Assembly: GCF_000761155.1 (NCBI RefSeq)
Contig: NZ_CP009533.1
Location: forward strand, 2,914,001-2,978,000
DNA length: 64,000 bases
Source: Pseudomonas rhizosphaerae
GTDB lineage: Bacteria; Pseudomonadota; Gammaproteobacteria; Pseudomonadales; Pseudomonadaceae
Reading direction: 5' to 3'
Within the stretch, counting starts at the first letter, position 1. The number at the start of each line of letters is the position of its first letter. A model generated the notes under the pieces. That model was not told the origin of the DNA. It did not search any database and was given only the letters and a program-made list of their open reading frames with translations. A program made the translations under genes and the position numbers. Of this stretch, positions 6,212 through 21,489 are shown piece by piece.

Positions 6212-7885
6212 ATGCTGGTGCACCTGTCCGTACACAACTATGCCATCGTCGAACATCTCGACCTCGAACTCGAGCGCGGGATGAGCGTGATCACGGGTGA
6301 AACCGGCGCCGGCAAATCGATCATGCTCGATGCGCTAGGCCTGGCCCTGGGCGATCGTGCCGACAGTGGTGTGGTCCGGCCGGGCGCCGACAAGGCCGAC
6401 ATCCTTGCCACCTTCGACCTGGTCGATATCCCTGAGGCCAGCACCTGGCTCGCCGAACGCGATTTGGAAACCGACGGCCCCTGCATTCTGCGTCGCGTGA
6501 TCACGGCCAAGGGCGGTTCGCGCGGCTACATCAACGGCACGCCCTGCCCGCTCGGCGACCTCAAGTCCCTGGGCGAGCTGTTGATCGACATCCACAGCCA
6601 GCATGAGCACCAGTCGCTGCTGAAGACCGACACCCATCGCCGCCTGCTCGACGAATACGCCGGCGCCAGCGACCTGGCCCGACAGGTGCAATTGGCCGCG
6701 CAGAAATGGCGGCAGACACGCCAGGAGCTCGAACGTCTGTCGGACTCCGGCGACGAGCAACGCGCGCGGCATCAGTTGCTCAGCTATCAGCTGGAAGAAT
6801 TGGAAAACCTCGGCCTGGGCGAAAACGAGCTGGAGCAGCTGGAGCAGGAACACAAGAACCTGACCAACGCCGAAGCATTGTTCGGCATCTGCCGTCAGGT
6901 CATCGACCACTGCAGCGAAAACGATTCGGGCAATGTGCTCAGCGCACTGACCGCCAGCCTGAATCGCCTGGGCGGCGTCAGCAATGCACCCAGCGCGCTG
7001 GGCGAGGCCGCCTCGATGCTGGCCACGGCGCAGATCCAGGTCGAAGAAGCGGTCGGCGAACTCAATCGCTTTCTCGACCACTTCGAGGCCGACCCGGCGC
7101 GCTTGCAGCACATCGAGGAACGGCTCGATACCATCTATACGCTGGCACGCAAACACCGCGTTCACCCGACCGAAGTGGTGGCGCTGCAACACCGGCTGCT
7201 CGAAGAACTGGAAGGCTTGAACGCCAGCGATGAATCCATCGAGCAGTTGGGTGAAGAGCTGGCCGCCTATGCCCGTCACTACCAGGAAAAAGCCCGCGAG
7301 CTGACCGGCCTGCGTACGCATGCGGCGGCACAACTGGCCGCGGCGGTCGAAGTGGAAATCCAGCGCCTGGGCATGCCAGGCGGGCGTTTCACCATCGAAC
7401 TGCGCGCCAATGCCCATGAGGACTTGCATCCCAATGGCCTGGAGCAGGTCGAACTGCTGGTCAGTGCCAACCCAGGGCAGCCAATGAAACCCCTCGCCAA
7501 AGTGGCTTCGGGTGGCGAGCTGTCGCGGATCAGCCTGGCGATCCAGGTGATCACCGCGCAGACCTCACGGGTTCCGACGCTGGTGTTCGACGAAGTCGAC
7601 GTGGGCATCGGCGGGCCGACAGCCGAGATCGTCGGGCAGTTGCTGCGACGTCTGGGCGAGCGCGGGCAGGTGTTGACCGTGACGCACCTGCCGCAGGTGG
7701 CGGCTCAAGGTCATCATCATCTGTTCGTGCATAAAGTACGCGGCAGCGACGAGACGCGCACTGCGGTGTCGAACCTGGGCAAGGGCGAGCGCGTAGAAGA
7801 AGTAGCGCGGATGCTGGGCGGGATCGATTTGACCAAGGAATCGTTGGCGCATGCCAAGAAGATGGTGGTGACGGCGAAGGGTTGA
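6212..7885 (+). CDS. recN: DNA repair protein RecN
   Basis: SMC-like ATPase that holds broken DNA ends during recombinational repair. The 557-residue protein starts MLVHLSVHNYAIVEHLDLEL and has Walker A GETGAGKS at residues 29-36. A long coiled-coil middle follows (about 160-370). The C-terminal half carries the ABC signature VASGGELSRI and Walker B TLVFDEVDVGIGG. I use the ATG at 6212; an ATG six codons upstream (6194) is possible but is less like other RecN proteins, and neither has a strong ribosome site. The LexA box lies about 25 bases upstream. It is divergent from grpE and convergent with fur. Confidence 0.96.
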   Translation: MLVHLSVHNYAIVEHLDLELERGMSVITGETGAGKSIMLDALGLALGDRADSGVVRPGADKADILATFDLVDIPEASTWLAERDLETDGPCILRRVITAKGGSRGYINGTPCPLGDLKSLGELLIDIHSQHEHQSLLKTDTHRRLLDEYAGASDLARQVQLAAQKWRQTRQELERLSDSGDEQRARHQLLSYQLEELENLGLGENELEQLEQEHKNLTNAEALFGICRQVIDHCSENDSGNVLSALTASLNRLGGVSNAPSALGEAASMLATAQIQVEEAVGELNRFLDHFEADPARLQHIEERLDTIYTLARKHRVHPTEVVALQHRLLEELEGLNASDESIEQLGEELAAYARHYQEKARELTGLRTHAAAQLAAAVEVEIQRLGMPGGRFTIELRANAHEDLHPNGLEQVELLVSANPGQPMKPLAKVASGGELSRISLAIQVITAQTSRVPTLVFDEVDVGIGGPTAEIVGQLLRRLGERGQVLTVTHLPQVAAQGHHHLFVHKVRGSDETRTAVSNLGKGERVEEVARMLGGIDLTKESLAHAKKMVVTAKG

Positions 7886-7898
7886 TTGCTGCAGGTCT

Positions 7899-7986
7899 GG
7901 CCTCTTCGCGGGCAGAGACCCGCTCCCACAACACGGCAGCGCAACCCTGCTCCATGTGGGAGCGGGTCTCTGCCCGCGAAGAGGCC
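7899..7986. repeat. Inverted pair of REP elements (recN-fur)
   Basis: Two 32-base arms, 7899-7930 and 7955-7986, are exact reverse complements separated by a 24-base loop. Each arm contains the REP core CGCGGGCAGAGACCCGCTCC. The pair lies between the convergent recN and fur genes and could fold into a very stable cruciform or RNA hairpin that blocks read-through or 3' exonucleases. Confidence 0.88.
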
Positions 7987-8004
7987 CTCACTGACTTCAC
8001 ACAT

Positions 8005-8031
8005 AAAAAAGGCGACCCTAGGGTCGCCTTT
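8005..8031. terminator. Bidirectional terminator between recN and fur
   Basis: GGCGACCC-TA-GGGTCGCC (8011-8028) forms an eight-bp stem. Six A residues lie on its left (a U6 tract for the minus-strand fur transcript) and TTT on its right. It is strongest for fur. Confidence 0.85.
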
Positions 8032-8048
8032 CTGCATCCAGCCTGGTC

Positions 8049-8453
8049 TTACTTCGGCTTGCGCACGTACAACACCAGGTTGTGATCCACCAGTTCGTAA
8101 CCGTGCTCGGTGACGATTTCTTTCTGGCGGCGTTCGATCTCGTGATCGGTAAACTCGATCACTTCACCGGAGTCGACGTCGACCATGTGGTCGTGGTGCT
8201 CGCCATCCGCCAATTCGAACACGGCATGGCCGCCGTCGAAATTGTGACGGGCTACCAGACCGGCCGCTTCGAATTGGGTCAGGACACGGTAAACCGTGGC
8301 CAGGCCCACATCCTCACCAGCTTCCATCAGCGCCTTGTAGACCTCTTCGGCGCTCATGTGACGTTGCTGTGCCGATTCCAGCATTTGCAAGATCTTGACC
8401 CGTGGAAGGGTCACCTTGAGGCCGGCTTTACGCAGTTCGCTATTATCAACCAT
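8049..8453 (-). CDS. fur: Ferric uptake regulator Fur
   Basis: Fe(II)-responsive repressor of iron acquisition genes. The 134-residue protein starts MVDNSELRKAGLKVTLPRVK and has the winged-helix DNA-binding domain in residues 1-80. The metal-binding block GEHHDHMVDVD (His86, His87, His89) and the C-terminal dimerisation domain follow. A longer in-frame reading to 8549 adds residues not found in Fur, so 8453 is chosen. The protein contains no cysteine: positions of the E. coli structural Cys pair after HDH are Asp and Ser, so it cannot form the Cys4 zinc site. It is divergent from bamE, sharing a 98-base control region, as is usual in Pseudomonas. Confidence 0.97.
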   Translation of the reverse strand: MVDNSELRKAGLKVTLPRVKILQMLESAQQRHMSAEEVYKALMEAGEDVGLATVYRVLTQFEAAGLVARHNFDGGHAVFELADGEHHDHMVDVDSGEVIEFTDHEIERRQKEIVTEHGYELVDHNLVLYVRKPK

Positions 8454-8551
8454 GGTCAGCTTTCTCAACGATGCGGCTTCGCAGCATCTATTAATGCGGG
8501 TATGATCGGGGTTTACGTTGTCCCAGCCAAGATAGTGGAAGTCGCCCACCG

Positions 8552-9073
8552 ATGCAAAACACCAAGCACTTGCTAACCAGCCTCACCTTCGTGGGACTGC
8601 TCGCACTCGCCGGTTGTTCATTCCCCGGGGTTTACAAAATCGACATCCAGCAGGGCAATGTCGTCACGCAGGACATGATAGACCAGTTAAGGCCCGGAAT
8701 GACCCGTCGGCAAGTAAGGTTTATCATGGGCAACCCACTGCTGGTCGACACGTTTCACGCCAATCGCTGGGATTACCTGTACAGCTTGCAGCCAGGTGGC
8801 GGCGAACGTCAGCAGGAACGCATGAGTGTCCTGTTCAACGGCAACGACCAACTGGTTGGCCTGTCCGGTGATTTCATGCCCGGCGTCAGCAAGGACCAGG
8901 CTATCCTGGGCAGCGACACCGATACCAACGTGGCACCCCAGCAGGGCGAGCCGCAAAAGGCCGAAGAGCCGCCCAAGCCGGGCTCGATGCTCGAAGACAT
9001 CCAGCGCGATGTCGACGGCGTGAAGACTGTTCCCGTCCCGGCGCCGCAGCCGCTGGACGTCTCGCCGCAATAA
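8552..9073 (+). CDS. bamE: Outer membrane assembly lipoprotein BamE/OmlA
   Basis: Small lipoprotein of the BAM complex that stabilises BamA-BamD during insertion of outer-membrane proteins. The 173-residue precursor has a signal peptide ending in the lipobox LALAGC with the lipidated Cys22. The SmpA/OmlA fold follows at about residues 40-110 ([19 protein letters not shown]...DYLYSL). The C-terminal tail (about 125-173) is Pro/Glu-rich and longer than in E. coli BamE, as in other pseudomonads. It is divergent from fur and followed by a strong terminator. The ribosome site is weak (GGAAG, about 12 bases upstream). Confidence 0.94.
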
Positions 9074-9084
9074 GCGAGCGATAC

Positions 9085-9114
9085 GAAAAAAGCCCGGTCA
9101 TGCCGGGCTTTTTC
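9085..9114. terminator. Bidirectional terminator between bamE and rnfH
   Basis: AGCCCGG (9091-9097) pairs with CCGGGCT (9103-9109). A tracts on the left and T tracts on the right extend the stem and serve both convergent genes. Confidence 0.9.
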
Positions 9115-9132
9115 ATGAGCGCAAAAAAGTGT

Positions 9133-9444
9133 TTAGCGAACCTTGCGTGCCTGCGCCGCTTTGGCCGCGCGCAATCGTCGCACTTCTTTTGGATCCGCCA
9201 GCAACGGTCGGTAAAGCTCGATGCGCTCACCCGCTCGCAGTACATGCTCGGCGGGAGACGCCAACAGGCTTGAGAAGATACCCACAGGGCATTGGGAAAA
9301 ATCCACTTCCGGGAAGCGCTCGGCGATGCCGGACAGTTCGATGGCCTGCGCAACGCAGGTCCCGACGGGCACTTGAAGAGCGATCAATGCCTGGTCATCG
9401 ACCGCGGCATAGGCCACTTCGATATCAATCAACGGATCAGCCAT
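9133..9444 (-). CDS. rnfH: RnfH family protein (UPF0125)
   Basis: A 103-residue protein of the RnfH/UPF0125 family, with a ubiquitin-like beta-grasp fold related to ThiS/MoaD. It has no C-terminal Gly-Gly and no established biochemical activity. Recognisable segments are DIEVAYAAVDDQALIALQVP near the start, CPVGIFSSLLASPAEHVLRAGERIELYRPLLADPKEVRR in the middle and a basic C-terminus. The ATG at 9444 overlaps the end of ratA by eight bases, so the pair is translationally coupled. The ratA-rnfH pairing is common in gammaproteobacteria. Confidence 0.92.
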   Translation of the reverse strand: MADPLIDIEVAYAAVDDQALIALQVPVGTCVAQAIELSGIAERFPEVDFSQCPVGIFSSLLASPAEHVLRAGERIELYRPLLADPKEVRRLRAAKAAQARKVR

Positions 9445-9871
9445 GCAACTGCTTGGCGCGCTGGCAGAAAGCATCGACCAGAGTATTGGCAGCCTGATTG
9501 AACAGCGGACCCAAGGTCGCGCGAACGATCGGGCCAGCGTAGTCGAAGGACAGATCGAGGCTGATCTTGCAGGCCTTCTCACCCAGGGGCTTGAACACCC
9601 ACATGCCGTGCAACTGATTGAACGGCCCTTCTTCCAGATTCATCTCGATGGAGCGGCCGGGCTCCAGGGTATTGCGGGTCACGAAGTGCTGACTCAACCC
9701 ACCCTTGGCGATGTCCAGGTTGGCACGCATCAAGGTATCGGTTTCTTCGAGGATGGTGGTGGCCGAACACCAGGGCAGGAACTCAGGATAGCGGGACACA
9801 TCGTTGACCAGGTCATACAGGGCCTGAGCGGGATAGGGCAGCAGAGCCGAGCGTTGAATATGGGTAGTCAT
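9437..9871 (-). CDS. ratA: RatA/PasT-type START-domain protein
   Basis: A 144-residue single-domain protein of the polyketide cyclase/START superfamily, homologous to E. coli RatA (PasT). That protein was described as inhibiting 70S assembly and is related to the yeast coenzyme Q carrier Coq10. Family segments are SALLPYPAQALYDLVNDVSRYPEFLPWC at the N-terminus, EGPFNQLHGMWVFKPLG in the middle and the helix NQAANTLVDAFCQRAKQLHG at the end. It overlaps rnfH by eight bases and is divergent from smpB. Whether it acts as a toxin or a quinone-binding protein cannot be read from sequence. Confidence 0.93.
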   Translation of the reverse strand: MTTHIQRSALLPYPAQALYDLVNDVSRYPEFLPWCSATTILEETDTLMRANLDIAKGGLSQHFVTRNTLEPGRSIEMNLEEGPFNQLHGMWVFKPLGEKACKISLDLSFDYAGPIVRATLGPLFNQAANTLVDAFCQRAKQLHG

Positions 9872-10114
9872 GCGAGCGTCACTTCCAAAACTGGGCGGCG
9901 GACGCGAGCTTCACGCGCCGGCCGGACGACGCCAACGGCGCCTTGAAAATAAGGTAGGCATGCCAGCAGACAAGGGGCACGCCAACGAAATCACGGGGCT
10001 TCTTTGTCGACAGCGGCGAAGCGCAGGCTATCCAAAAAGATCAGGTATTGTCCGGTATTCATTGCAACCGCTCAAGCGCACCGCAATACCGTAGCCGAGA
10101 GCGCAACGACTGCC

Positions 10115-10129
10115 TATAATGCGCGCCCT
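10115..10129 (+). promoter_or_regulatory. Candidate smpB promoter -10 box and GC-rich discriminator
   Basis: A perfect TATAAT (10115-10120) followed by the discriminator GCGCGCCC ends directly before the smpB ATG at 10130. No good -35 box is visible 17 bases upstream. If used, the transcript would start within about three bases of the ATG, giving a leaderless or nearly leaderless mRNA. GC-rich discriminators are typical of stringently controlled promoters. Confidence 0.5.
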
Positions 10130-10612
10130 ATGGCCAAATTAAAGAAACACCCTACAGGGACCATCGCGCAGAACAAGAAAGCGCGACACGATTACTTCAT
10201 CGAACACCGTTTCGAGGCTGGCTTGGTCCTGGCCGGTTGGGAAGTAAAAAGCCTGCGTGCCGGCAAGGCGCAACTGGTGGACAGCTACGTGCTGCTCAAG
10301 GATGGCGAAGCTTGGCTGATGGGTAGCCACTTCACTCCCCTGACCACGGCCAGCACCCACGTGATCGCCGACCCGACGCGTACCCGCAAACTGTTGCTCA
10401 ACCGCCGCGAGCTGGAAAAGCTGTTCGCTCAGGTTCAGCAAAAGGGCTATGCCTGCGTGGCCTTGTCGATCTACTGGAGCAAGCACTTGATCAAGTGCGA
10501 AATCGCTCTGGGCAAGGGCAAGAAGGAATACGACAAGCGCGACACCGAGCGCGAACGCGATTCCAATCGCGAGCTGCAGCGTGCCGTGCGCAACAAGGGC
10601 AAGGAAGACTGA
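10130..10612 (+). CDS. smpB: SsrA-binding protein SmpB
   Basis: tmRNA partner that places alanyl-tmRNA in stalled ribosomes. The 160-residue protein starts [21 protein letters not shown]. It has the OB-fold core ([28 protein letters not shown], about residues 21-50) and the [17 protein letters not shown] tail near 130-146, which mimics the codon-anticodon helix. The ATG at 10130 gives the family N-terminus; an in-frame reading from 10004 adds unrelated residues. No Shine-Dalgarno sequence precedes it, and a TATAAT box ends ten bases upstream. The tmRNA gene ssrA lies 3.3 kb downstream on the same strand. Confidence 0.97.
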
Positions 10613-10661
10613 CTTCCCGCCCCTTGCAGCGCCGGCTTCGCCGCGATTTCCGGCTTGACCT

Positions 10662-11429
10662 TTACAAGCCGTTGCGTCGCTGCGCGCGAGCGGTTCGCTG
10701 CACGGTCTGCCGCGCCTCGTCGAGCACGCCCTGCACGTAGGTGATGTGCAGACTGGCCAACTCCCGCGCCTGCTCTGCCTGCCCCTTCACGATGGCCTGA
10801 AACAGCTGCCGATGCTGCGCGATCAGCTTGTCGCGAGTTTCGACGCTGTGCCGGTGCATGCCGCCGATGTTCACCACCATGTTGCGCTTGAGCATGTCGA
10901 ACAGCCCGCGCACGGTGTGCAGCAACACCGCGTTGTGGCTGGCTTCGGCGATGGCCAGGTGAAAGTTGGCATCGGCCACGCCCTCCTCCTCCCGCGTCAC
11001 GCTGTCGACCCGCCGGTAACAGTCTTCCAGAACATCCATGGCCAGCTTCAGTTGTTCACGATCGATCTCAGTGGCGCGCTGCGCCGCATAGAACGCACAT
11101 GACGCTTCCAGCGTGTGACGAAATTCCAGCAGATCGCGCTGACTCTCCGGATTGCTTTCCAGCAATGCCAGCAGCGGATCGCTGAACGTCGAGCCCAGCT
11201 TGTGGCAAACATAATTACCGCCACCTTGACGACTGACCAGCATGCCCTTGGCCACCAATTTCTGGATGGCCTCACGCAGCGAGGGCCGCGACACGCCGAA
11301 TTGCTCGGCGAGCGCACGCTCGGCCGGCAAGCGTTCGCCAGCCTTCAGCGTACCCTCGAGAATCATGGCTTCCAGACGCTCGATGATGCCATCGGACAAA
11401 CGCCGCTGACGGACTTGATCAATACCCAT
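10662..11429 (-). CDS. lldR: FadR-type GntR regulator of lactate use (LldR-like)
   Basis: A 255-residue repressor of the GntR superfamily, FadR subfamily. The N-terminal winged helix-turn-helix spans about residues 10-75 (GERLPAERALAEQFGVSRPSLREAIQKL). The C-terminal all-helical FCD ligand domain has the metal-site pattern of this group (FRHTLE..., DANFHLAIAEASHN, AQHRQLFQAI). The ATG at 11429 has GGAG six bases upstream; ATGs further upstream lack one. It is divergent from lldP, with an ideal FadR-type palindrome in the shared region, so control of L-lactate uptake is the likely job. Ligand identity is inferred from context. Confidence 0.88.
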   Translation of the reverse strand: MGIDQVRQRRLSDGIIERLEAMILEGTLKAGERLPAERALAEQFGVSRPSLREAIQKLVAKGMLVSRQGGGNYVCHKLGSTFSDPLLALLESNPESQRDLLEFRHTLEASCAFYAAQRATEIDREQLKLAMDVLEDCYRRVDSVTREEEGVADANFHLAIAEASHNAVLLHTVRGLFDMLKRNMVVNIGGMHRHSVETRDKLIAQHRQLFQAIVKGQAEQARELASLHITYVQGVLDEARQTVQRTARAQRRNGL

Positions 11430-11488
11430 GGGTGGCTCCATCACACGATTGCTTCGGCCGCACTCGACCAAAGTCATAGACAAGGAAA

Positions 11489-11517
11489 TTGACAGCCCCA
11501 CGGCTGCGCCCTAACCT
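11489..11517 (+). promoter_or_regulatory. Candidate lldP promoter
   Basis: TTGACA (11489-11494), 17 bases, TAACCT (11512-11517). The -35 box is perfect and the -10 box is weak. The predicted start is about ten bases upstream of the LldR-type operator, so the repressor would act as a roadblock. Confidence 0.45.
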
Positions 11518-11533
11518 GACTTGGATTTATTGT

Positions 11534-11552
11534 AAATTGGTATTACCAATTT
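11534..11552. promoter_or_regulatory. LldR-type operator
   Basis: A perfect 19-bp palindrome AAATTGGTATTACCAATTT with nine-bp arms around a central T. It contains TGGTATTACCA, which fits the FadR-subfamily consensus TnGTnnnACnA. It lies between the divergent lldR and lldP genes. Confidence 0.8.
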
Positions 11553-11614
11553 CTGCAATCAAACAGCCGCACGACAGCGCCAAGCCTTCCAAAAAAAACA
11601 AGGGGCCTCAGCTT

Positions 11615-13315
11615 ATGCAAACCTGGCAGCAGATCTACAACCCGCTCGGCAGCCTCGGGCTGTCCGCCCTGGTTGCCGTCATTCCCATCGTGTTCTTCTT
11701 CCTGGCGCTGGCCGTATTTCGCATGAAGGGGTACATCGCCGGCAGCATCACGCTGGCGCTGTCCATCATCCTGGCCATCTTCGCCTACGGCATGCCCGCC
11801 GACATGGCGCTGGCCGCCGCGGGTTACGGATTCATGTACGGCCTGTGGCCGATCGCCTGGATCATCGTGGCCGCCGTGTTCCTCTACAAGCTGACGGTGA
11901 AGAGCGGCCAGTTCGAAATCATCCGCAGCTCGGTGCTGTCCATCACCGACGACCAACGCCTGCAGGTGTTGCTGATCGGCTTCTGCTTCGGCGCGTTTCT
12001 GGAAGGGGCGGCAGGCTTCGGCGCGCCGGTGGCGATTACCGCAGCCCTGTTGGTGGGTCTGGGCTTCAACCCGCTCTACGCCGCAGGCCTGTGCCTGATC
12101 GCCAACACCGCGCCGGTGGCCTTCGGCGCCCTGGGCATCCCGATCATCGTCGCGGGTCAGGTGACCGGCATCGACCCGTTCAAGATCGGCGCCATGACCG
12201 GCCGCCAACTGCCGTTGCTGTCGCTAATCGTACCGTTCTGGCTGGTGTTCATCATGGACGGCCTGCGCGGCGTTCGGGAAACCTGGCCAGCGGCGCTGGT
12301 CGCAGGCCTGAGCTTTGCCATCGTGCAGTACCTGACCTCCAACTTCATCGGTCCGGAACTGCCCGACATCACCTCGGCCCTGGCCAGCATCGTCTGCCTG
12401 ACCCTGTTCCTCAAAGTCTGGCAACCCAAGCGCGCCGCCAGCAGCGAAACGGTCGCCGTCAGCGGTGGCGCAGCCGTAATGGGCGGCGGGCCCACAGGCA
12501 AAGCCAGCACCGTCGGTGGCTCGACGCCAACGCCCTACAGCCTGGGGCAGATTCTCAAGGCTTGGTCGCCGTTCCTGATCCTGACCGTACTCGTCACCAT
12601 CTGGACCCTGAAGCCGTTCAAGGCGATGTTCGCCCCGGGCGGCGCCATGTACAACTTCGTCTTCAACTTCGCCATCCCGCACCTGGACCAACTGGTGCTG
12701 AAGACCGCGCCCATCGTCGCCACCGCCACACCGATGCCCGCCGTGTTCAAGTTCGACCCGATCTCGGCTACCGGCACGGCGATTCTGTTTGCCGCGATCA
12801 TCTCGATGATGGTGCTGCGCATCGACATCAAGACTGCGTTCAAGACGTTCGGTGAAACCTTGTTCGAACTGCGCTGGCCGATCCTGTCCATCGGCATGGT
12901 GCTGGCCTTCGCCTTCGTCACCAACTTCTCGGGCATGTCCTCCACCATGGCGCTGGTCCTGGCCGGTACCGGCTCCGCGTTCCCGTTCTTCTCGCCGTTC
13001 CTGGGCTGGCTCGGTGTGTTCCTCACCGGCTCGGACACCTCGTCCAACGCCCTGTTCGGCTCGCTGCAAGCCACCACCGCACACCAGCTGGGCGTGAGTG
13101 ACGTGCTGATGGTGGCCGCCAACTCCAGCGGCGGCGTGACCGGCAAGATGATCTCGCCGCAGTCCATCGCCGTCGCCTGTGCTGCCACCGGGCTGGTGGG
13201 CCGCGAGTCCGACCTGCTGCGCTTCACGCTCAAGCACAGCCTGTTGTTCGCCACCATCATCGGCTTGATCACCTTGGCCCAAGCGTACTGGTTCACCGGC
13301 ATGCTGGTGCACTGA
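11615..13315 (+). CDS. lldP: L-lactate permease
   Basis: Inner-membrane lactate:H+ symporter of the LctP family; glycolate is also a known substrate of such permeases. The 566-residue protein has a dozen or more hydrophobic segments, beginning [20 protein letters not shown] near residue 17. It carries family motifs such as [21 protein letters not shown] (about 130-150) and the C-terminal [14 protein letters not shown]...[20 protein letters not shown] region. The ATG at 11615 has an AGGGG-type site upstream; an in-frame reading from 11489 would run through the operator. A terminator follows at once, so no lactate dehydrogenase gene is co-transcribed here. Confidence 0.95.
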
Positions 13316-13882: not shown

Positions 13883-14275
13883 GGGGCCGATTAGGATTCG
13901 ACGCCGGTTGCGAAACTTTAGGTGCATGCCGACTTGGTAACAGAAGTCGTAAATCCACTGTTGCAACTTTCTATAGTTGCCAATGACGAAACCTACGAGG
14001 GCCAAGCTCTCGCTGCCTAACGGTAGCTGAGCCGCTCTTCTGGCTACTTCGGTGCCAGCGATCATCAGGGGATGCCTGTAAACCCAAAGTGATCGTCACG
14101 CAGAACAGGATCGTCGTGTAGCACGCTGTGGGCAAAGCGACTAAAACTTACACAGCTCGTCCAATGCACCCTGCCAGTCGGGCGGCTGCGGATTAACTCA
14201 GTAGACACGGCTAAGCATGTAGTACCGACAGCGGAGTACTGGCGGACGGGGGTTCAAATCCCCCCGGCTCCACCA
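13883..14275 (+). ncRNA. ssrA: Transfer-messenger RNA (tmRNA)
   Basis: tmRNA rescues stalled ribosomes by acting as an alanine tRNA and then as a short message. The 393-nt mature RNA begins GGGGCCGATTAGGATTCGACG and ends with a T-arm (GGTTCAAATCC) and the encoded CCA at 14273-14275. The acceptor stem pairs GGGGCCG (13883-13889) with CGGCTCC (14265-14271), with one G-U pair. The tag reading frame starts at the Ala resume codon GCC (13979) and encodes ANDETYEGQALAA, ending at TAA (14018-14020). The LAA-type end is the ClpXP/ClpAP degron. Its partner smpB is 3.3 kb upstream. Its 3' end is a frequent integration site for mobile DNA, and an accessory segment starts just downstream. Confidence 0.97.
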
Positions 14276-14289
14276 AATCTGCAGAAGAA

Positions 14290-14312
14290 GGCGCCCTCGG
14301 GCGCCTTTTTTT
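14290..14312 (+). terminator. Rho-independent terminator of ssrA
   Basis: GGCGCC (14290-14295) and GGCGCC (14300-14305) form the stem around a CTCG loop, followed by seven T residues (14306-14312). Confidence 0.93.
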
Positions 14313-14483
14313 ATGGGTGCGATTTGGTGAGGCGCTGAAGCTCCGTCGGCTTATGGCCATGGCTGTCTATGACCGATGTTGGCATGTGGTGCTGAGCCTG
14401 CCTCACAGAAAAAAGGCCGAGAGGAGGCGAAAAAAAACCGCTCCGAAAAGCGAAAACTCTTACAATCAGAGCCTACGCTTTCC

Positions 14484-14537
14484 GATCGTATGTAGTCTGC
14501 TGCCGTCAAATCTGACGGCAGCAGCAAAGCTACGATC
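14484..14537. repeat. Large nested palindrome upstream of the nuclease-helicase gene
   Basis: A perfect 12-bp stem (14497-14508 with 14513-14524, loop AATC) is nested inside an outer seven-bp stem (GATCGTA 14484-14490 with TACGATC 14531-14537). The two stems are separated by six-base internal loops. There is no U tract, so it is not a simple terminator. It ends 30 bases before the GTG start of the nuclease-helicase gene. It could be an attenuator, a protein-binding site or the remnant of a mobile palindromic element. Confidence 0.7.
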
Positions 14538-14567
14538 ATTCTGAGCTTGGAGCTCTAAGGACCACGA

Positions 14568-16439
14568 GTGATCGTTTACGCTGCAACCAAACAGCAGTTT
14601 CTCAAAGACAGCGATAACGACGATATCGAAGAAGTGATTCTCAGGCATTTCAAAGAAGCCACCGGAAAGAAGGTTGGCGCTTCGGAGATCAAGTCCTGGC
14701 AAGGATCGCTGACTTACATGGCCAAGGTGCTTCGAGACGACGGTCTACCCTGCGACGCAGGCTTGGCCATCGAGCTGCATATCCCCCAGTCATCGAAACG
14801 CATCGACTTTTTGCTGACGGGCCGTGATGAGTTTCAAGCCAAAAACGCGGTTTTGATTGAGCTAAAGCAGTGGAGCAAAGCCACTGCCACCACAAAGGAT
14901 GCCGTCGTAAAAACGGCACTGGGCGGCAGCCAAGTCGAGACTGTTCATCCCTCTTATCAGGTTTGGTCGTACGCCGCCCTACTGCAGGGCTTCAACGAGG
15001 CTGTCTACGACAAAAGCATCAAGGTACGGCCCTGTGCGTATCTGCATAACTACGTAAGTGATGGTGTCATCAATTCTTCTCACTACGAACCCTATACCAA
15101 CAAAGCACCTTTGTTCCTGAAAGGCCCGGCTGAGCTCGAAAAGCTCCGAAGCTTTCTGAAGAAACACATCGTTCACGGTGACAACAAAGAGGTGCTTTAC
15201 GAGCTTTCGAACGGGAAAATTCGCCCATCCAAAGCGTTGTCTGAAGCCCTGAATGGGCTAATGAAAGGCAAGCCTGAGTTCATATTGATCGATGATCAAA
15301 AAGCAATTTTCGAGTCCGCTCTCGCGGCAGCGAGCCAAGCCACTATTGAAGGTCCAAAGGTATTGATAATTGAGGGTGGTCCCGGTACCGGAAAAACGGT
15401 CCTGGCGATTAACCTGCTGGTAAGGCTCACTGCCTTGAGCCTGTTGAGCAAATATGTGTCCAAAAATGCTGCCCCACGCAAGGTGTACGAAAGCAAGTTG
15501 ATCGGCACTGTAAAGCGAACACACTTCTCTAATTTTTTTTCCGGTTCGGGCGCATTTATCGATACCGAACCTAACACCTATGATGCGCTCATCATCGATG
15601 AGGCTCATAGGCTCAACGAAAAAAGCGGCCTGTACGGAAACCTTGGCGAAAACCAAATCAAGGAGCTGATCGATTCATCGAAATGCTCAATCTTTTTTAT
15701 CGACGAAGATCAGCGCGTGACCCTGAGCGACATCGGTAGCAAGCAGGCGATTCGCTCCTTTGCCAAAGCCAAAGGCGCGACCGTTGAGGAGTACGTTCTG
15801 TCCTCTCAGTTCCGTTGCAGTGGCTCTGATGGCTACATTGCATGGTTGGACGACGTATTAGAGATTCGCCCCACAGCCCACCCCGCGCTCGACACCAGCG
15901 ACTATGAGTTCAAGGTATTCGATTCCCCCCAAGCCATGCACGCCGCTATCGAACAGAAAAATCACGGTAACAAGGCTCGCGTGGTCGCAGGTTACTGCTG
16001 GCCTTGGCTCAGCAAAAAAGACTCCAAGGCTTCGGATATTGTTATCGGCGACAACTACGCACGCCAATGGAATCTGGATCAGGATGGTAGCTTATGGATT
16101 ATCGCCGAAAACTCTATCGAACAGGTGGGGTGTATCCATACCTGTCAGGGTCTCGAGGTAGATTACATAGGAGTGATCATCGGGCCGGATCTGGTAGTGC
16201 GGAAAGGCCAGGTGGTGACATCGCCACATGACCGAGATAAGCATGACAAGTCGATTCGAGGTTGGAAAAAGTTGATGAAGGAGCAACCTGCCCTAGCACA
16301 ACAAGAAACAGACTTGATAATTAAAAACACTTATCGGACGCTGATGACCCGTGGGATGAAGGGCTGTTTTCTGTACTGCACAGATCCGGAGACTGCACGG
16401 TATTTTGCCAGCAGGGTTGTCGGATACGGTCACAGGTAA
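14568..16439 (+). CDS. Nuclease-helicase fusion, DUF2075/Schlafen-like P-loop protein
   Basis: A 623-residue protein with two modules. Residues 1-200 show a PD-(D/E)XK-like nuclease pattern: RIDF with Asp80, ELK (Glu98, Lys100) and QVWSY (Gln131, Tyr135), the D...ExK...QxxxY order of RecB-family nucleases. Residues 240-623 are an SF1-like DUF2075 helicase with Walker A GGPGTGKT (270-277), Walker B LIIDEAH (341-347), SSQFRC (412-417), CQGLEVDYIGVIIG (526-539) and RTLMTRGMKG with likely arginine fingers (590-599). The GTG start at 14568 has AAGGA six bases upstream. Base composition is visibly less GC-rich than the flanking core. It lies just behind ssrA and converges with a second nuclease gene. 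DNA-targeting defence is inferred, not shown. Confidence 0.85.
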   Translation: MIVYAATKQQFLKDSDNDDIEEVILRHFKEATGKKVGASEIKSWQGSLTYMAKVLRDDGLPCDAGLAIELHIPQSSKRIDFLLTGRDEFQAKNAVLIELKQWSKATATTKDAVVKTALGGSQVETVHPSYQVWSYAALLQGFNEAVYDKSIKVRPCAYLHNYVSDGVINSSHYEPYTNKAPLFLKGPAELEKLRSFLKKHIVHGDNKEVLYELSNGKIRPSKALSEALNGLMKGKPEFILIDDQKAIFESALAAASQATIEGPKVLIIEGGPGTGKTVLAINLLVRLTALSLLSKYVSKNAAPRKVYESKLIGTVKRTHFSNFFSGSGAFIDTEPNTYDALIIDEAHRLNEKSGLYGNLGENQIKELIDSSKCSIFFIDEDQRVTLSDIGSKQAIRSFAKAKGATVEEYVLSSQFRCSGSDGYIAWLDDVLEIRPTAHPALDTSDYEFKVFDSPQAMHAAIEQKNHGNKARVVAGYCWPWLSKKDSKASDIVIGDNYARQWNLDQDGSLWIIAENSIEQVGCIHTCQGLEVDYIGVIIGPDLVVRKGQVVTSPHDRDKHDKSIRGWKKLMKEQPALAQQETDLIIKNTYRTLMTRGMKGCFLYCTDPETARYFASRVVGYGHR

Positions 16440-16809
16440 CGACCCATTCGGCTAAGTTAAACAGATCTGATACGCTTGCTCATGTGAAGAGCGTCCTCAC
16501 TCGTCGTCCGACGCGACAGCCAGGAGTCTTCTTAAACACCGCAGCGAGGATATGGGGATGAATGACGCTGCTAGCTCCAAATTTGCCCCGGGGTTTGCTT
16601 CTATAGCTCTATGATTTGGAAGCTACGTATCGCCGATCATAAGGGCTTAGATCCAATAGCGGCGAATAGCCGTGCCACCATTGAGCATCAAACCTTGGAC
16701 AGCGCCGCAATTTTCTTCCCTGTGACGGCAGGCCACGAAATCGGCTAGCTGCTACCAATAAGCAGCTGCCATCCTAATTTATCTGATATTAATTTAGAGA
16801 GCGCACACA
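16440..16809. other. Gap between two convergent nuclease genes
   Basis: This stretch of 370 bases has mixed composition and no supported gene. It contains one seven-bp hairpin (AGCTGCT 16747-16753 with AGCAGCT 16761-16767) without a U tract. I found no terminator, promoter, duplicated ssrA end or insertion-sequence end in it. Confidence 0.5.
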
Positions 16810-18213
16810 TTACAGCTTACTAGCGCTAGGCTTTAGCTGCCCATCTATGTATACAATTGATATATTAGAACCACCAATTGCCTCGTGTATTGCATTCATA
16901 TTATCCACATGCCTTTGATTCATCCCGAGATCTAAAATTAAATAAATAGCTTTTCGAGACTTCTCAGACTTCATGTACTCAGGAAGCTGCTTAAGGATAC
17001 CACTTTTAAGACGCGAGTTATCCGACTTCTTTATTTCAACCAATACACTATTTTCGTTATTTGAGCCAAACTTGAAATCAACCGGCCCTCGACCTGAGTT
17101 TGATTCCCTAGCAATCATAATTTTATTTGCATCGCAGTAGGCTTCCGCGACCCCATAAAATGCAAGTTGAATTGCCGACTCGTTCTTAACTTTGCCCTTG
17201 CCATCATAAAACAATGTATTTAAACCATTATCCTCAACCAACTGCTTGAATTTTTCACATATCTTGACTATCAGATTAAACACCTCGTCCAATGAGGGAT
17301 GCGAACTCAATGCTAATTCAATAGGATTCTCAGACACTGCCTCAACAGTACGTTGATACCATGCATATTCTCCCTTTTTATCTTCAGAAAAATCATATGG
17401 CTTTACATCTTTAGATGCGTATTGATCAATCAGATCATCGATCAGGTCAGGATATTTCAATACTAGCTTTTTCAGCTCTGCCTTTTTCATATTAGCTAAA
17501 GCTCGCCAGCTAGAGCCAACCAAAGCATTAAGTGACTCTCTGATCTCAGCGCTGCTAATCCCAATCTCATCAGAACCGCTCCACTCAAAAGCCGACGGCA
17601 AACCTCTCATTAACTCTTTGGGAACGAGGAGAATTGGCTCCCTTGTGAAGGGATTCAGAGGCAGCTGAGTTTTATGCTCTAAAGCGCCGCCCCAACCTTT
17701 TGGCAAAATTTTACTATATATATTCAACGAATAAGTCAGGATATCATCCTGAATAATATTAGCTGTCATATCGCTAATGCGATCTGGACCAAAATCCTCT
17801 TCAAACAAACCAACCAACTCGAACAATTCAGGGTCAGTTTTTCCTGCATCGATAATTAGCTTCGCTGTAGTTAAAATTCTATCCCGCAGACCAGCACCAA
17901 TCCCACTTCCAGACGTACCACCACTAGAGTAACCGATACAAAGCCCACGAACCTCGTGCCAATTCATTTTCCTGGCAGCGGAATTCCAAAAAGGATCTCC
18001 TCGACGCTGGCTGTGCTGTAACAACTTTCCGATTGCCAAGAATCTGCTTTGTAACACAACATAACTTGAAGAAAATTCTGGTGTTTTACAATGCTTCAGC
18101 AAAAGTGGGTCGATGAATAACCGGGTGTCGTGGTCGAGAATAGGATTGAAAACACCAAGGGCGTCCAGTGTATCGTTTTGGATACCAAGAAATTTAGATA
18201 AGGACGTTGGCAT
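16810..18213 (-). CDS. Uncharacterised protein with C-terminal PD-(D/E)XK-like nuclease domain
   Basis: A 467-residue soluble protein I cannot assign to a named family. The last 100 residues fit a restriction-type nuclease: GRGPVDFKF (Asp379), LVEIKK (Glu393, Lys395) and KQLPEY (Gln409, Tyr413), again the D...ExK...QxxxY arrangement. The N-terminal 350 residues start LSKFLGIQNDTLDALGVFNPILDHDTRLFIDPLLL. They include a Gly/Ser-rich loop YSSGGTSGSGIGAGLRDR (95-112) and are otherwise helical, possibly a sensor or effector-control domain. The gene is AT-rich compared with the core and has an AGGGAA site before the ATG at 18213. It is convergent with the nuclease-helicase gene. An anti-phage role is inferred from fold and location. 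Confidence 0.8.
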   Translation of the reverse strand: MPTSLSKFLGIQNDTLDALGVFNPILDHDTRLFIDPLLLKHCKTPEFSSSYVVLQSRFLAIGKLLQHSQRRGDPFWNSAARKMNWHEVRGLCIGYSSGGTSGSGIGAGLRDRILTTAKLIIDAGKTDPELFELVGLFEEDFGPDRISDMTANIIQDDILTYSLNIYSKILPKGWGGALEHKTQLPLNPFTREPILLVPKELMRGLPSAFEWSGSDEIGISSAEIRESLNALVGSSWRALANMKKAELKKLVLKYPDLIDDLIDQYASKDVKPYDFSEDKKGEYAWYQRTVEAVSENPIELALSSHPSLDEVFNLIVKICEKFKQLVEDNGLNTLFYDGKGKVKNESAIQLAFYGVAEAYCDANKIMIARESNSGRGPVDFKFGSNNENSVLVEIKKSDNSRLKSGILKQLPEYMKSEKSRKAIYLILDLGMNQRHVDNMNAIHEAIGGSNISIVYIDGQLKPSASKL

Positions 18214-18611
18214 GACATTCCCTGTGCATAGGCTCTATCTGGCAAAGTGCCACGTTCGCTGCAACATTTCAATCACTTTGTTTCCTTAAATTGCGAGCCT
18301 ACTACGTCTTGCCACCTAAGCTATCGAAATCCCGACTGCTGATTTTTAGAGAACGCCGCTGAATGAGCTGCAATGGGTGTCAGTTCAACGAGGGCCTCGT
18401 ACCAGCAGTTGCCGGAGAAAAACTTAACTCTGTGTCCAGGATTAGTTGATCACTGCCAATACCCCTTTATCTAGGCTAGTGCAGCTTCATAGTTTGCACC
18501 CTTAGCGGACGGTATTGGCTCGATAGCGCGGTTTCACAGCAGCGCTTTAGACGGCAACCCTTGCAGAACCTCCCTCACAAGCCGAAACTGCACCAAACGA
18601 CGAGGTACACC
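18214..18611. other. Divergent promoter region, nuclease gene and GAF gene
   Basis: Nearly 400 bases without a supported gene, separating two divergent genes. The only structure I saw is a perfect nine-bp inverted repeat, GCCAATACC (18455-18463) and GGTATTGGC (18511-18519), 47 bases apart. It could be a spaced operator or chance. This is probably the right edge of the accessory segment; no direct repeat of the ssrA 3' end was found. Confidence 0.45.
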
Positions 18612-19133
18612 ATGGCACCCGACTACCCGCCCACCCTCCTGTCCCAAGAAGAACGCGCAGCCATTGCTGAAATCGAAGCCACCACCAACATCCTGCGGTT
18701 GGTAACCCGGCTAACCAACATGCGCTTCGCCGCGATCACCAAGTTCGGCGACGCCGAACTAGTGATCTGCTCCGTGCATGATTCTGCAGACTTAGGAATT
18801 GGCGCAGGAGAGGCCTTCCCACTGGAAGACACGATCTGCAGCGAGTTTCAGCGGGACCCCGCGCCGTTGCTGATCCCGAAAGTCAGCCATGACCACAGCT
18901 TCGCCTCACGACTCATCGTCAAGACCTACGATCTGGACAGTTACGTAGGCGTGCCCATTTTCCTGCCTGATGGCCGTTTGTACGGGGCGCTTTGCGCGAT
19001 CGATTCGCGGCCTGTGCTGTTTGAAGATCCGGATGTGTGCGAAACGCTGGAGATCTTTGCCCGGTTGATCGGGTGCATATTTTTTGCGAGCTTGGCGGTG
19101 AAGGTGGCAGGTGTCGGGATTGAGTTGGAGTGA
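18612..19133 (+). CDS. Single GAF-domain protein
   Basis: A 173-residue cytosolic protein that is almost entirely one GAF domain (about residues 20-165). Characteristic segments are TTNILRLVTRLTNMRFAAITKFGDAE, the FPLEDTICSEFQRDPAPLLIPKV middle and YVGVPIFLPDGRLYGALCAIDS near the end. GAF domains bind cyclic nucleotides, chromophores or other small ligands; no cofactor-binding cysteine motif is obvious here. I chose the ATG at 18612 because GAGG lies six bases upstream; a TTG 17 codons earlier has none. Its stop is 21 bases from the end of the convergent hybrid histidine kinase. A link to that kinase is possible but not shown. Confidence 0.85.
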   Translation: MAPDYPPTLLSQEERAAIAEIEATTNILRLVTRLTNMRFAAITKFGDAELVICSVHDSADLGIGAGEAFPLEDTICSEFQRDPAPLLIPKVSHDHSFASRLIVKTYDLDSYVGVPIFLPDGRLYGALCAIDSRPVLFEDPDVCETLEIFARLIGCIFFASLAVKVAGVGIELE

Positions 19134-19154
19134 TTGTGGGAAAGGGATGCAAGC

Positions 19155-21257
19155 TCAGGTCACCCTCGAAAAATGTGTACACATCGCCCCACACAACAAG
19201 CGCGACAACTGCTCCACCGAGTACGGCTTATGCAACAACTCGAATCCATCCGTGCCCTTCTCCGCCAGCACATGGCTGTATCCCGACGTCAGCACTACAG
19301 GTAACCCTGCGTATCGCCGACGAATCTCATGGGCCAGCTCGATGCCTGTCATCCCCGGCAGCACCACATCGGAAAACACCACTTTGAATCGGCTTGCGTC
19401 GCGGGCCAGCTCGGCCAGTGCTTCTTGTCCATTGATGGCAAGGACCGGCCGGTAGCCCAAATCCGTGAGTGAGTGCATCGCAAAGGCGCCCACTTGAGGG
19501 TTGTCTTCGACGATCAATACACCGGTGCCATGTCCGTGCACCAATTCATGGGGCGCCTCGACACTCCGTGGCTCGCGCGGCTCGGATGCCTGGGGCAGGT
19601 AGAGTGTGAACGTGGTGCCTTGATCGACTTCACTGTCCACGGTGATCTCGCCACCCGATTGCTTGGCGAACCCGAACACTTGCGACAGGCCGAGGCCCGT
19701 GCCCTGCCCCACGCCTTTGGTGGTGAAGAAGGGCTCGAATATCTTTCCCAGGTGCAACGGCGCGATGCCGCTGCCGGTATCGGTCATCGAAATCACCACT
19801 TGATCGCCTGGCATCATCGGCTGCTCGTTGGCCTCGGATCCACGGCGGGCTGGGCCCACTCGGATGATGAGGCGCCCCTGGCCGACCATGGCATCACGAG
19901 CGTTGACGGCCATGTTGACGATTGCCATGTCGAACTGAGAGGGGTCGGCGATCACGAAATGGCTATGTTCGGGGATATCCATCGCCAGTTCCACTTCGGC
20001 ACCTACCAGTGTCTTGATCATGCTGGCCAGGGCCCGCAGGTTCTCTGCAGGTGCGAACACCGTTGGTTGCAGTGTTTGACGCCGGGCGAAGGCAAGCAGT
20101 TGCGAGGTGACTTTGGCGGCTCGTTCGACGGTGTCGGCAATGGCTGAGACATAGCGTGCGCGTCGCTCGCTGGAGAGATCCGGCCGTTTGAGCAGGTCAG
20201 TCGACGACTTGATTACGGTCAGCAGGTTGTTGAAGTCGTGGGCGACGCCACCGGTGAGTTGGCCGATGGCTTCCAGCTTCTGCGATTGACGCAGGGCTTC
20301 CTCGGCGGCGGCCAGGGCGCTGGCGCTCTCCCGCTCGGCGGTGAAGTCGCGGCCCACGGCGTTGATCTGCTGCTCGTCTGGCTGGGTCGACCAGGATATC
20401 CAGCGGTAGCTGCCGTCCTTGTGGCGGTAGCGGTTGTCGAACCGGGCGTAGGCATGGCCGTCAGCGGACAGACTGGCGCCCTGCTGGGTGTGCGCCAGGT
20501 CGTCGGGGTGGATCAGTTCGAAAAGCGACAGGCCGATCAACTCGGATTCCTGCCATCCCAGCAGGTCGGTCCAGGCAGGGTTGACCGCAGTAATGACGCC
20601 GTCGAAAGTGCAGCGCAGCATGATGTCTGCCGACAACAGCCAAAGTCGATTACGGTCGGCGGTACGGCGGGAGATTTCTTCTTCGAGCCCGGCGTTGAGC
20701 TCGCTCAAGCGCAGGAGAGCCTGGGCCCGTTCATGCTCGGCGCGGTCCCGTTTGCGATCGGCGAGCACTTGCTGAGTCATTTCCGAGGCCAGCAACAGTA
20801 CACCTTCATAGCCGCCGCTCTCGCCCTGCACAGGCGAAAAGCTGTAGGTCCATACGGTCTCTTCCTCTTTGCCGTGACGCCGCATCATCATCGACAGGTT
20901 CTCGATGGAGAAACCATCGCCTGTGGCAAGCACCTGTGCCACTTGGGGGCTGAGCACCGGGGCGATGTCGGTGAGCACCTCCGGCATCGGGCGACCGAAC
21001 GCTGCAGGGTGCCGATCGCCCAGTGCCAGGCCGTAGGCATCGTTGTAGAGCAGCCACTGCTGCGGCCCCCAGTAAAGGGCCGCGATGCCTTTGGTGTTCA
21101 ACACCAGCGACAAAGCAGTGCGTAGGGATGCGGGCCATGAGCTGTAATCGCCCAAGGCGGTGCTGGACCAATCCGTGTCGCGCACCAAGTCTCCCATTTC
21201 TCCGCCGCCGATCATGGGCGGGACGGGAGCCAGGGGAATGGGGGAGGCAACTGGCAT
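19155..21257 (-). CDS. PAS-containing hybrid sensor histidine kinase
   Basis: A roughly 700-residue soluble hybrid kinase without membrane segments. From the N-terminus it has a PAS-like domain (GEMGDLVRDTDWSSTALGDYSSWP...), a short coiled coil and a PAS/PAC domain (FDGVITAVNPAWTDLLGW...YRHKDGSYRWISWS). A HisKA box with phospho-acceptor His (GQLTGGVAHDFNNLLTVI) and a HATPase domain (NAVNARDAM region, DTGSGIAP, GTGLGLSQVFGF) follow. A C-terminal receiver domain has its Asp in VFSDVVLPGMTG. The start is uncertain: ATGs at 21257, 21215 and 21197 and a GTG at 21347 are in frame and none has a good ribosome site. The receiver may relay phosphate to an unlinked HPt. Signal unknown. Confidence 0.88.
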   Translation of the reverse strand: MPVASPIPLAPVPPMIGGGEMGDLVRDTDWSSTALGDYSSWPASLRTALSLVLNTKGIAALYWGPQQWLLYNDAYGLALGDRHPAAFGRPMPEVLTDIAPVLSPQVAQVLATGDGFSIENLSMMMRRHGKEEETVWTYSFSPVQGESGGYEGVLLLASEMTQQVLADRKRDRAEHERAQALLRLSELNAGLEEEISRRTADRNRLWLLSADIMLRCTFDGVITAVNPAWTDLLGWQESELIGLSLFELIHPDDLAHTQQGASLSADGHAYARFDNRYRHKDGSYRWISWSTQPDEQQINAVGRDFTAERESASALAAAEEALRQSQKLEAIGQLTGGVAHDFNNLLTVIKSSTDLLKRPDLSSERRARYVSAIADTVERAAKVTSQLLAFARRQTLQPTVFAPAENLRALASMIKTLVGAEVELAMDIPEHSHFVIADPSQFDMAIVNMAVNARDAMVGQGRLIIRVGPARRGSEANEQPMMPGDQVVISMTDTGSGIAPLHLGKIFEPFFTTKGVGQGTGLGLSQVFGFAKQSGGEITVDSEVDQGTTFTLYLPQASEPREPRSVEAPHELVHGHGTGVLIVEDNPQVGAFAMHSLTDLGYRPVLAINGQEALAELARDASRFKVVFSDVVLPGMTGIELAHEIRRRYAGLPVVLTSGYSHVLAEKGTDGFELLHKPYSVEQLSRLLCGAMCTHFSRVT

Positions 21258-21489
21258 GGGGGACGTCCAAGGGGATAGGGCTGGAAGTGTGAGTGATTGT
21301 GGATAGGGCTGGCAATGCTTGGGAGAAGTCAGGCACGTATCCTCCACGACCCACGAGCCTTTTTGAATTTATGCTTGAGACACTGCTTGCAAACAATCAA
21401 CCGGGGTTGGTGCCCTGGCTAGACAGGCATCGCAGTTGACCTCCCTACCCAGCCTGCCTATCCTCCCCCTCGTCACGCCTCATGCGTGA

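Follow-up and report, generated by a model that had tools for sequence, protein, structure and literature searches.

Two probably independent accessory nucleases behind the tmRNA gene of Pseudomonas rhizosphaerae, one of them the likely partner of a MazG-like protein

The 64-kb stretch of the Pseudomonas rhizosphaerae chromosome analysed here (contig NZ_CP009533.1, positions 2,914,001 to 2,978,000; hereafter the window, from a genome of 4.69 Mb) raises the question of whether two large putative nuclease genes lying directly behind the transfer-messenger RNA (tmRNA) gene ssrA form a single anti-phage system or represent separate acquisitions. The tmRNA gene, identified by ARAGORN, occupies positions 13883-14275 of the forward strand and is followed by a GC hairpin and T-run that was recognized by eye at approximately 14290-14312. 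The first of the two genes, hel (14568-16439, forward strand), has a GTG start and encodes a predicted nuclease-helicase of 623 amino acids (aa), and the second, nuc (16810-18213, reverse strand), encodes a protein of 467 aa; the two are convergent and separated by a gap of 370 bp. An earlier note on this DNA had described this arrangement of ssrA, a drop in base composition and then convergent nuclease-helicase and nuclease genes, and it is confirmed by the open reading frames (ORFs), the ARAGORN prediction and the G+C content, which is 50.6% for hel and 41.2% for nuc in comparison to 61.2% for the window. The G+C content of third codon positions is likewise 59.6% and 39.3%, respectively, vs. 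87.2% in the 608 aa gene upstream of ssrA. The results described below suggest, with a probability that we place at about 0.6, that hel and nuc are independently acquired accessory nucleases at a defence hotspot, and that hel belongs, as one of two genes, to a widespread module that pairs mazG with a PD-(D/E)XK-superfamily 1 (SF1) helicase. On our best reading, the unit of interest is mazG-hel, of which the window carries a shortened form.

The protein encoded by hel is a member of the DUF2075/SLFN-g3 family, whose name is uninformative with regard to function. Its match to the Pfam profile SLFN-g3_helicase (PF09848) has an E value of 1.1e-103 and a score of 347.7 bits (cut-off 24), and it extends over residues 264-606, corresponding to profile positions 2-354 of 354. 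This helicase domain (15357-16385, forward strand) contains the motifs GGPGTGK (Walker A), D344-E-A-H, QFR, and QGLE, and RecD2, Dda, and SLFN14 were the nearest neighbours of the protein in Foldseek searches. The N-terminal part holds a PD-(D/E)XK-like nuclease domain (residues 40-161; 14685-15050, forward strand), the invariant residues of which are E40, E69, R78, D80, E98-L-K100, Q131, Y135, and H160-N161; for R78, D80, E98-L-K100, and Q131 the invariance holds in 16 relatives. The structure model of residues 1-210 mostly has predicted local distance difference test (pLDDT) values of >70, and no PDB match was assigned to that part. When hel and nuc were compared by sequence with solved structures, no convincing relative was found for either of them.

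Matches to hel were detected in 22 of the 199 genomes from the genus and the gene is near-complete in 19, including the window. In genome G050 it is split in two frames (locus L055), G009 has a distant relative, and G073 and G121 contain fragments only. In the phylum sample, hel was matched in 11 of 398 genomes, and it was found in 40 plasmid records, four phage records, and three viral contigs. Scans of the viral contigs with hel alone or nuc alone confirmed nothing, and it was the alignments that gave three hel and 13 nuc loci there. Overall, hel is spread over bacteria and archaea at 47-54% identity, and restriction-modification genes adjoin it in Hymenobacter and Priestia. Judged from its substitutions, the gene is under purifying selection, as the ratio of nonsynonymous to synonymous divergence (dN/dS) was 0.031-0.060 in nine of 12 pairs, including pairs with loci that lack mazG, the other three pairs being saturated.

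Clustering of the genes surrounding hel revealed a single recurrent gene directly upstream of it, the translation of which is a MazG-like protein (PF12643, 2.9e-15; PF03819, 8.8e-7). According to a profile of ten MazG-like proteins, 14 of the 19 Pseudomonas loci have this gene next to hel, those where it is absent being the window, L041, L042, L050, and L051. Outside the genus, it was found in eight of the nine loci with a match to the hel profile (in one case downstream and in one case partial), after two weak loci without such a match had been dropped. Of the plasmid, phage, and viral records, 12 loci were inspected and in six of these mazG is located beside hel, viz. those from Halomonas (downstream), Halalkalicoccus, Marivirga (where hel is fragmented), Priestia, a Microcystis phage, and a single viral contig. 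In the remaining six mazG is lacking; these comprise two loci from Hymenobacter, one each from Methanosphaera and Streptomyces, and two from viral contigs, of which one starts at hel. As the ten profile sequences were drawn from the same loci, the match is by construction for those loci; a BLAST search with the MazG-like protein of L043 alone gave the same picture as the profile for the genome loci. Additionally, a nucleotide pyrophosphohydrolase is annotated directly before DUF2075 on the Halalkalicoccus, Marivirga, and Priestia plasmids, and the mazG-hel pairing reaches the Bacteroidota, the Bacillota, and a haloarchaeon. Within PF09848, the subset of proteins that contains hel is defined by its constant MazG neighbour and its N-terminal PD-(D/E)XK domain. 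The literature searched, which was confined to open-licence PMC articles and is no proof of absence, yielded no description in which the pair of mazG and DUF2075 figures as a tested system; similarly, nothing was found there on DUF2075 and defence or on PDC-M36, and DUF2075 was present in no title or abstract of its full-text matches.

In the window, the mazG-like gene appears, from comparison of the sequences, to have been deleted, leaving behind a promoter-like block and its last codons. The promoter-like block (14432-14467, forward strand), which contains TACAAT at 14461-14466, was identified by comparison with five relatives, in which it precedes mazG at a distance of 460-507 bp from hel; in the window, the distance to hel is only 101-136 bp. 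Its scores of 18-22 were reached by none of 300 shuffles against each of the five relatives. For the 70 bp immediately preceding hel, matches were obtained with L038 (score 28, top shuffle 13) and L039 (score 21, top shuffle 14), with 0 of 300 shuffles reaching the score in each case, and weaker ones with L043 (1/300), L044 (0/300), and L048 (3/300). As both of these flanking blocks match relatives that possess mazG, about 360-370 bp net, comprising the body of mazG, should be gone. The surviving 3' end of the gene corresponds to positions 14500-14543 (forward strand), from where the homology continues via the ribosome-binding region to hel.

An inverted repeat without strand (14484-14537), with arms of 25 nucleotides that are 80% complementary and a loop of 4 nucleotides, is situated exactly at the scar. 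The right arm is derived from the mazG remnant, of which the left arm looks like an inverted copy made during the deletion. Besides this palindrome, the repeats within the locus are limited to short, chance-like pairs. The other mazG-less Pseudomonas loci retain different parts of the gene: L042 the last 125 bp, L050 the upstream region and the 5' part, and L041 at most the last 46 bp, which is a weak match (score 19-20, top shuffle 16-17); in L051, a remnant was undetectable. In the hel tree, the window and L042 are sisters with a support of 0.85, and hence the first step of the deletion may be common to both. The hel open reading frame has been kept in all five of the mazG-less loci, and the genome from which the window is derived contains one other MazG-like gene, which is 37% identical.

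The nuc protein showed no Pfam family above the cut-off, and it matches PHROG 30194 from end to end (2.4e-94; residues 3-466, profile positions 8-476 of 478). Its N-terminal domain is related to the PADLOC candidate PDC-M36A, with a match (5.6e-13) that covers only residues 20-206 (17596-18156, reverse strand) and includes the conserved motif DRISDMTxNII. In the C-terminal part (residues 345-413; 16975-17181, reverse strand), PD-(D/E)XK-like motifs are formed by E345, D379, E393xK395, Q409, and Y413. Of these, E345 and Q409 are invariant and the other three positions of the E345..D379..E393xK395..Q409 pattern are conserved in ≥90% of the 16 sequences compared, the motif having diverged in L108 and L110, two relatives of greater length. 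The AlphaFold model has a mean pLDDT of 77.2, no PDB family was apparent for the N-terminal domain, and in a fold search of BFVD none of 620 matches had an E value ≤0.001. On a Bradyrhizobium plasmid (L112, 4894-6456), a C-terminal PD-(D/E)XK domain of the nuc type is joined to another N-terminal half, and in L108 and L110 the N-terminal domain is kept and the C-terminus has diverged; from this pattern the two halves of nuc look exchangeable.

Within the genus, nuc was found in six of the 199 genomes, three of which carry close copies (the window, G039 with 86% and G193 with 81%) and three weak ones. The nuc profile was matched in 18 of the 398 genomes of the phylum sample, and further copies are present in 11 plasmid records, nine of them covering at least 80% of nuc, and in 13 IMG/VR viral contigs; a scan of the genome contigs gave three loci, and no match was obtained in the phage records. 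The gene occurs on its own on prophages, plasmids, and islands. On plasmids, nuc is a single gene, and in three of the seven plasmid regions read its neighbours are SIR2/DUF3427, Eco57I-type restriction and AbiE-type, or integrase genes. In G193 (L034), it is located beside the PARIS pair AriA (3e-29) and AriB (3.5e-23) on a contig that carries an integrase, and in P. floridensis it sits after a tRNA-Ser gene. The short viral contigs that carry two of the nuc relatives from IMG/VR (L136 and L137) also contain an ORF which, by eye, resembles the Zot/gene I protein of filamentous phages.

The earlier note had proposed that hel and nuc constitute either a two-component module or two independent genes, and it is the second alternative that fits the observations; the pairing of hel with nuc is probably not the natural one. 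In favour of a single two-component anti-phage module, the two genes adjoin in the window, hel is present in five of the six genus genomes with any nuc match, and in G152 (L048) a distant relative of nuc (PDC-M36A, 1.1e-40, residues 2-225) lies directly upstream of mazG-hel. However, the two genes are convergent and unlike in base composition, and in G039 and G193, the only two other genomes with close copies of both, they are on different contigs. Similarly, hel and the PDC-M36A gene of G099 are approximately 0.8 Mb apart, the co-occurrence in the phylum sample (2/398) shows no excess beyond P 0.08, the recurrent neighbour of hel is mazG, and nuc stands alone on plasmids and prophages. We consider it very improbable that the two genes form one such module. 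L048, the only locus besides the window with a nuc-type protein next to hel, contains an integrase-like gene, the PDC-M36A-like gene, and mazG-hel in a row on one strand (6777-12660).

The stretch behind ssrA in Pseudomonas is plastic, mobile, and rich in defence genes. All 199 genus genomes contain the tmRNA end, and the downstream stretch was compared in 40 of them, mostly those with the most similar ssrA, leaving out genomes already used for hel. None of these 40 congeners carries hel, nuc, or the GAF-domain gene that follows nuc in the window within about 17.5 kb after ssrA, three of the contigs ending at 6.7-8.7 kb. From each locus, up to three ORFs after ssrA were considered (118 in total). 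Of these, 13 are matched by Phage_integrase, and hits (E ≤1e-15) were obtained to 156 PADLOC families, including those for type I, type IIG, and type IV restriction, DndB, and reverse transcriptases; as these families overlap, their number does not equal a number of proteins. The controls, consisting of 114 ORFs from 20 arbitrary chromosomal stretches, gave at most one integrase and 36 PADLOC families, and the excess of integrases at ssrA is significant when one control integrase is assumed (Fisher P 0.0014). Additionally, at least eight of the 19 near-complete hel genes (those of the window, G091, G141, G144, G170, G050, G158, and G173) lie 0.2-10.3 kb downstream of ssrA on the same strand, for which the probability by chance is approximately 6e-18 in a 6-Mb genome. 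In G145, the tmRNA 3' end (the last 33 query bases) is repeated about 10 kb downstream of ssrA (L068, 7704-7736), as would be expected for the attachment (att) site of an integrated island.

The hotspot postulated in the earlier note is accordingly borne out by the variable content, the integrases, and the PADLOC families, and neither hel nor nuc matches a known non-defence family. The site itself is already in print, as the tmRNA 3' end is described as the landing site of mobile islands in the text of two Pseudomonas studies, dealing with the hotspot cDHS2 of P. aeruginosa (PMC10250203) and with tmRNA islands carrying IntY/AlpA (PMC12595487). These islands share with our locus the position behind the tmRNA gene and the defence cargo, and the terms DUF2075 and MazG are absent from the main text of both papers. 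Unlike them, the window contains no integrase and no 14-bp repeat, and to this extent the note's statement that integrase, att repeat and known defence families are all lacking was correct; for the last of these it needs qualification, since partial PADLOC matches exist for both hel and nuc. Searches of the 64 kb for a second tmRNA end, with a 23-mer (≤3 mismatches) and with the 14-bp att core (≤1 mismatch), were negative, and the 14-mer core has three copies in the whole genome, the other two being approximately 191 kb and 1.5 Mb distant. For the GAF-domain and histidine-kinase-like genes to the right of nuc (18561-21347), the matches in the inspected relatives are all partial and paralog-like. 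This block was rejected as a core flank for this reason, and the accessory zone may extend further to the right than was stated earlier.

Several results weigh against our interpretation. The mazG gene is missing in 5 of the 19 Pseudomonas loci and in 6 of the 12 plasmid and viral loci and is thus not obligatory. The structure model of hel is poor overall (mean pLDDT 59.7), and the nearest Foldseek matches of nuc, viz. Ecl18kI and PspGI, are weak (E 4.9e-3 to 4.7e-2, none <0.001), as are those to the Mus81-type nucleases that are also among its nearest neighbours. The control stretches likewise contain PADLOC matches, including one whole Wadjet set. Lastly, hel and nuc occur together in 5 of the 199 genus genomes (P 6e-5, post hoc and counting the three weak nuc matches), or in 4 of 198 (P 4e-4, also post hoc) when the genome of the window is omitted. 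This co-occurrence is the main result against full independence of the two genes, and it could be due to a loose association via shared islands or defence-rich genomes.

Of the known defence systems, Nhi and AbiO (PADLOC PDLC02372 and PDLC02350) resemble hel in combining a nuclease and an SF1-type helicase in one protein, and the text on Nhi describes DNA nicking and unwinding linked to the single-stranded DNA-binding protein of phages (PMC12904381). The PADLOC matches of hel, which are to PDC-S41, AbiO, and Nhi (E 1.2e-13 to 4.3e-12), are partial and restricted to the helicase part. The helicase stretches of Nhi and AbiO are matched at 4.3e-12 and 2.5e-13, respectively, but only residues 236-417 of hel align (model positions 175-329, about 150 of 470), which is short of an end-to-end match; in contrast to these systems, the N-terminal nuclease of hel is unmatched and mazG normally precedes the gene. 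MazG NTP pyrophosphohydrolase is listed among the uncharacterised predicted defence domains of DefensePredictor (PMC13092281), where a DUF2075 or helicase partner is unnamed in the text section, and the figure or supplements may hold the same pair. With PDC-M36 (PDC-M36A, PDLC04597/04598), nuc has the N-terminal domain in common; however, a true PDC-M36A protein in G099 (L035) matches this family end to end (3.1e-245), whereas nuc does not. Shedu, Ppl, and Gabija are nucleases gated by DNA ends or by nucleotides. As working analogies only, nuc would be like Shedu in joining a variable N-terminal sensor to a PD-(D/E)XK nuclease, and in Ppl a nuclease is licensed by nucleotide depletion, both as outlined in the text of PMC12904381. 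The Shedu family DUF4263/SduA is absent among the nuc matches in Pfam and PADLOC at E values up to 1, Gabija GajA (OLD-type) and GajB (UvrD-type) are not among the Pfam and PADLOC matches of hel or nuc, and the Ppl family is not among the matches of either protein in Pfam, PADLOC, or PHROG.

The loss of mazG in the window could also mean that hel is here a decaying remnant, which has lost its MazG partner and its function. The mazG deletion, the inverted repeat at the scar, the broken hel of L055, and the isolated fragments in G073 and G121 agree with such decay, but the hel reading frame and all of its invariant motifs are intact, the promoter-like block before it has been retained, and dN/dS is low in mazG-less loci (e.g., 0.045 at a dS of 0.17 for L041 vs. 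L043). As dS is near saturation for the pairs involving the window, a loss of hel function may have been recent, and overall we regard decay as unlikely. The same low probability is assigned by us to mazG-hel being a mobile module for DNA repair or nucleotide stress rather than immunity. Helicases similar to RecD2 and Dda act in repair and replication, and the dN/dS of hel is, in our impression, low for a defence gene. MazG enzymes are also described as house-cleaning enzymes (PMC10014863). The patchy spread of the module, its location in hotspots and on plasmids, its restriction-modification neighbours, and the range of hel across bacteria and archaea at 47-54% identity speak against a repair function. 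An even more doubtful proposal is that the hel protein is toxic and that MazG serves as its antitoxin or is indispensable for its regulation, with which the position of mazG on the same strand immediately upstream of hel in most loci would be consistent. The intact hel in all five mazG-less loci among the 19 from Pseudomonas argues against MazG as an obligatory antitoxin, and, apart from the window, three of these loci retain mazG remnants of differing length.

MazG proteins cleave nucleoside triphosphates, helicases of the SF1B type (e.g., RecD2 and Dda) move along DNA, and PD-(D/E)XK domains cut it. Judged from the domains and motifs, the association with mazG, the deletion scar, and the mobility, all of which are read from sequences, mazG-hel is on our best reading a defence module, so far uncharacterised, that targets DNA and in which MazG, acting on nucleotides, would be a dispensable helper; its defence role is deduced from genomic context, and the enzymatic activities and the role of MazG are likewise predicted ones. 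The helicase of hel would load onto invading DNA and unwind it, and the N-terminal nuclease would cut it. MazG would split (deoxy)nucleoside triphosphates to the monophosphates, and this may either lower the level of a nucleotide that restrains the nuclease or clear altered phage nucleotides. MazG would license or help hel in the way in which Ppl is licensed by nucleotide depletion (PMC12904381). In the window, hel may act by itself or together with a different cellular MazG and, as the mazG promoter region is now directly before it, hel is predicted to be expressed. The nuc protein would be a separate one-gene nuclease, the N-terminal domain of which may sense some signal and the C-terminal PD-(D/E)XK domain of which may cut DNA. 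A more far-reaching proposal, which we put forward tentatively, is that mazG-hel represents an undescribed nucleotide-gated immunity in bacteria and archaea, where MazG would sense or lower nucleotides and thereby license a DNA-degrading helicase, that MazG-less lineages have evolved a self-sufficient hel, and that nuc is another one-gene nuclease not described so far, with a new type of sensor domain at its N-terminus.

The ssrA hotspot is already known, and the results provide a caution that reading adjacent genes of a hotspot as one system can mispair genes. If the mazG-hel reading is true, a nuclease-helicase that is annotated merely as DUF2075 would be part of a widespread two-gene immune module coupling nucleotide pools to the destruction of DNA. 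The repeated natural loss of mazG from loci where hel has been kept would then provide ready-made pairs for asking whether MazG acts as trigger, booster, or safeguard.

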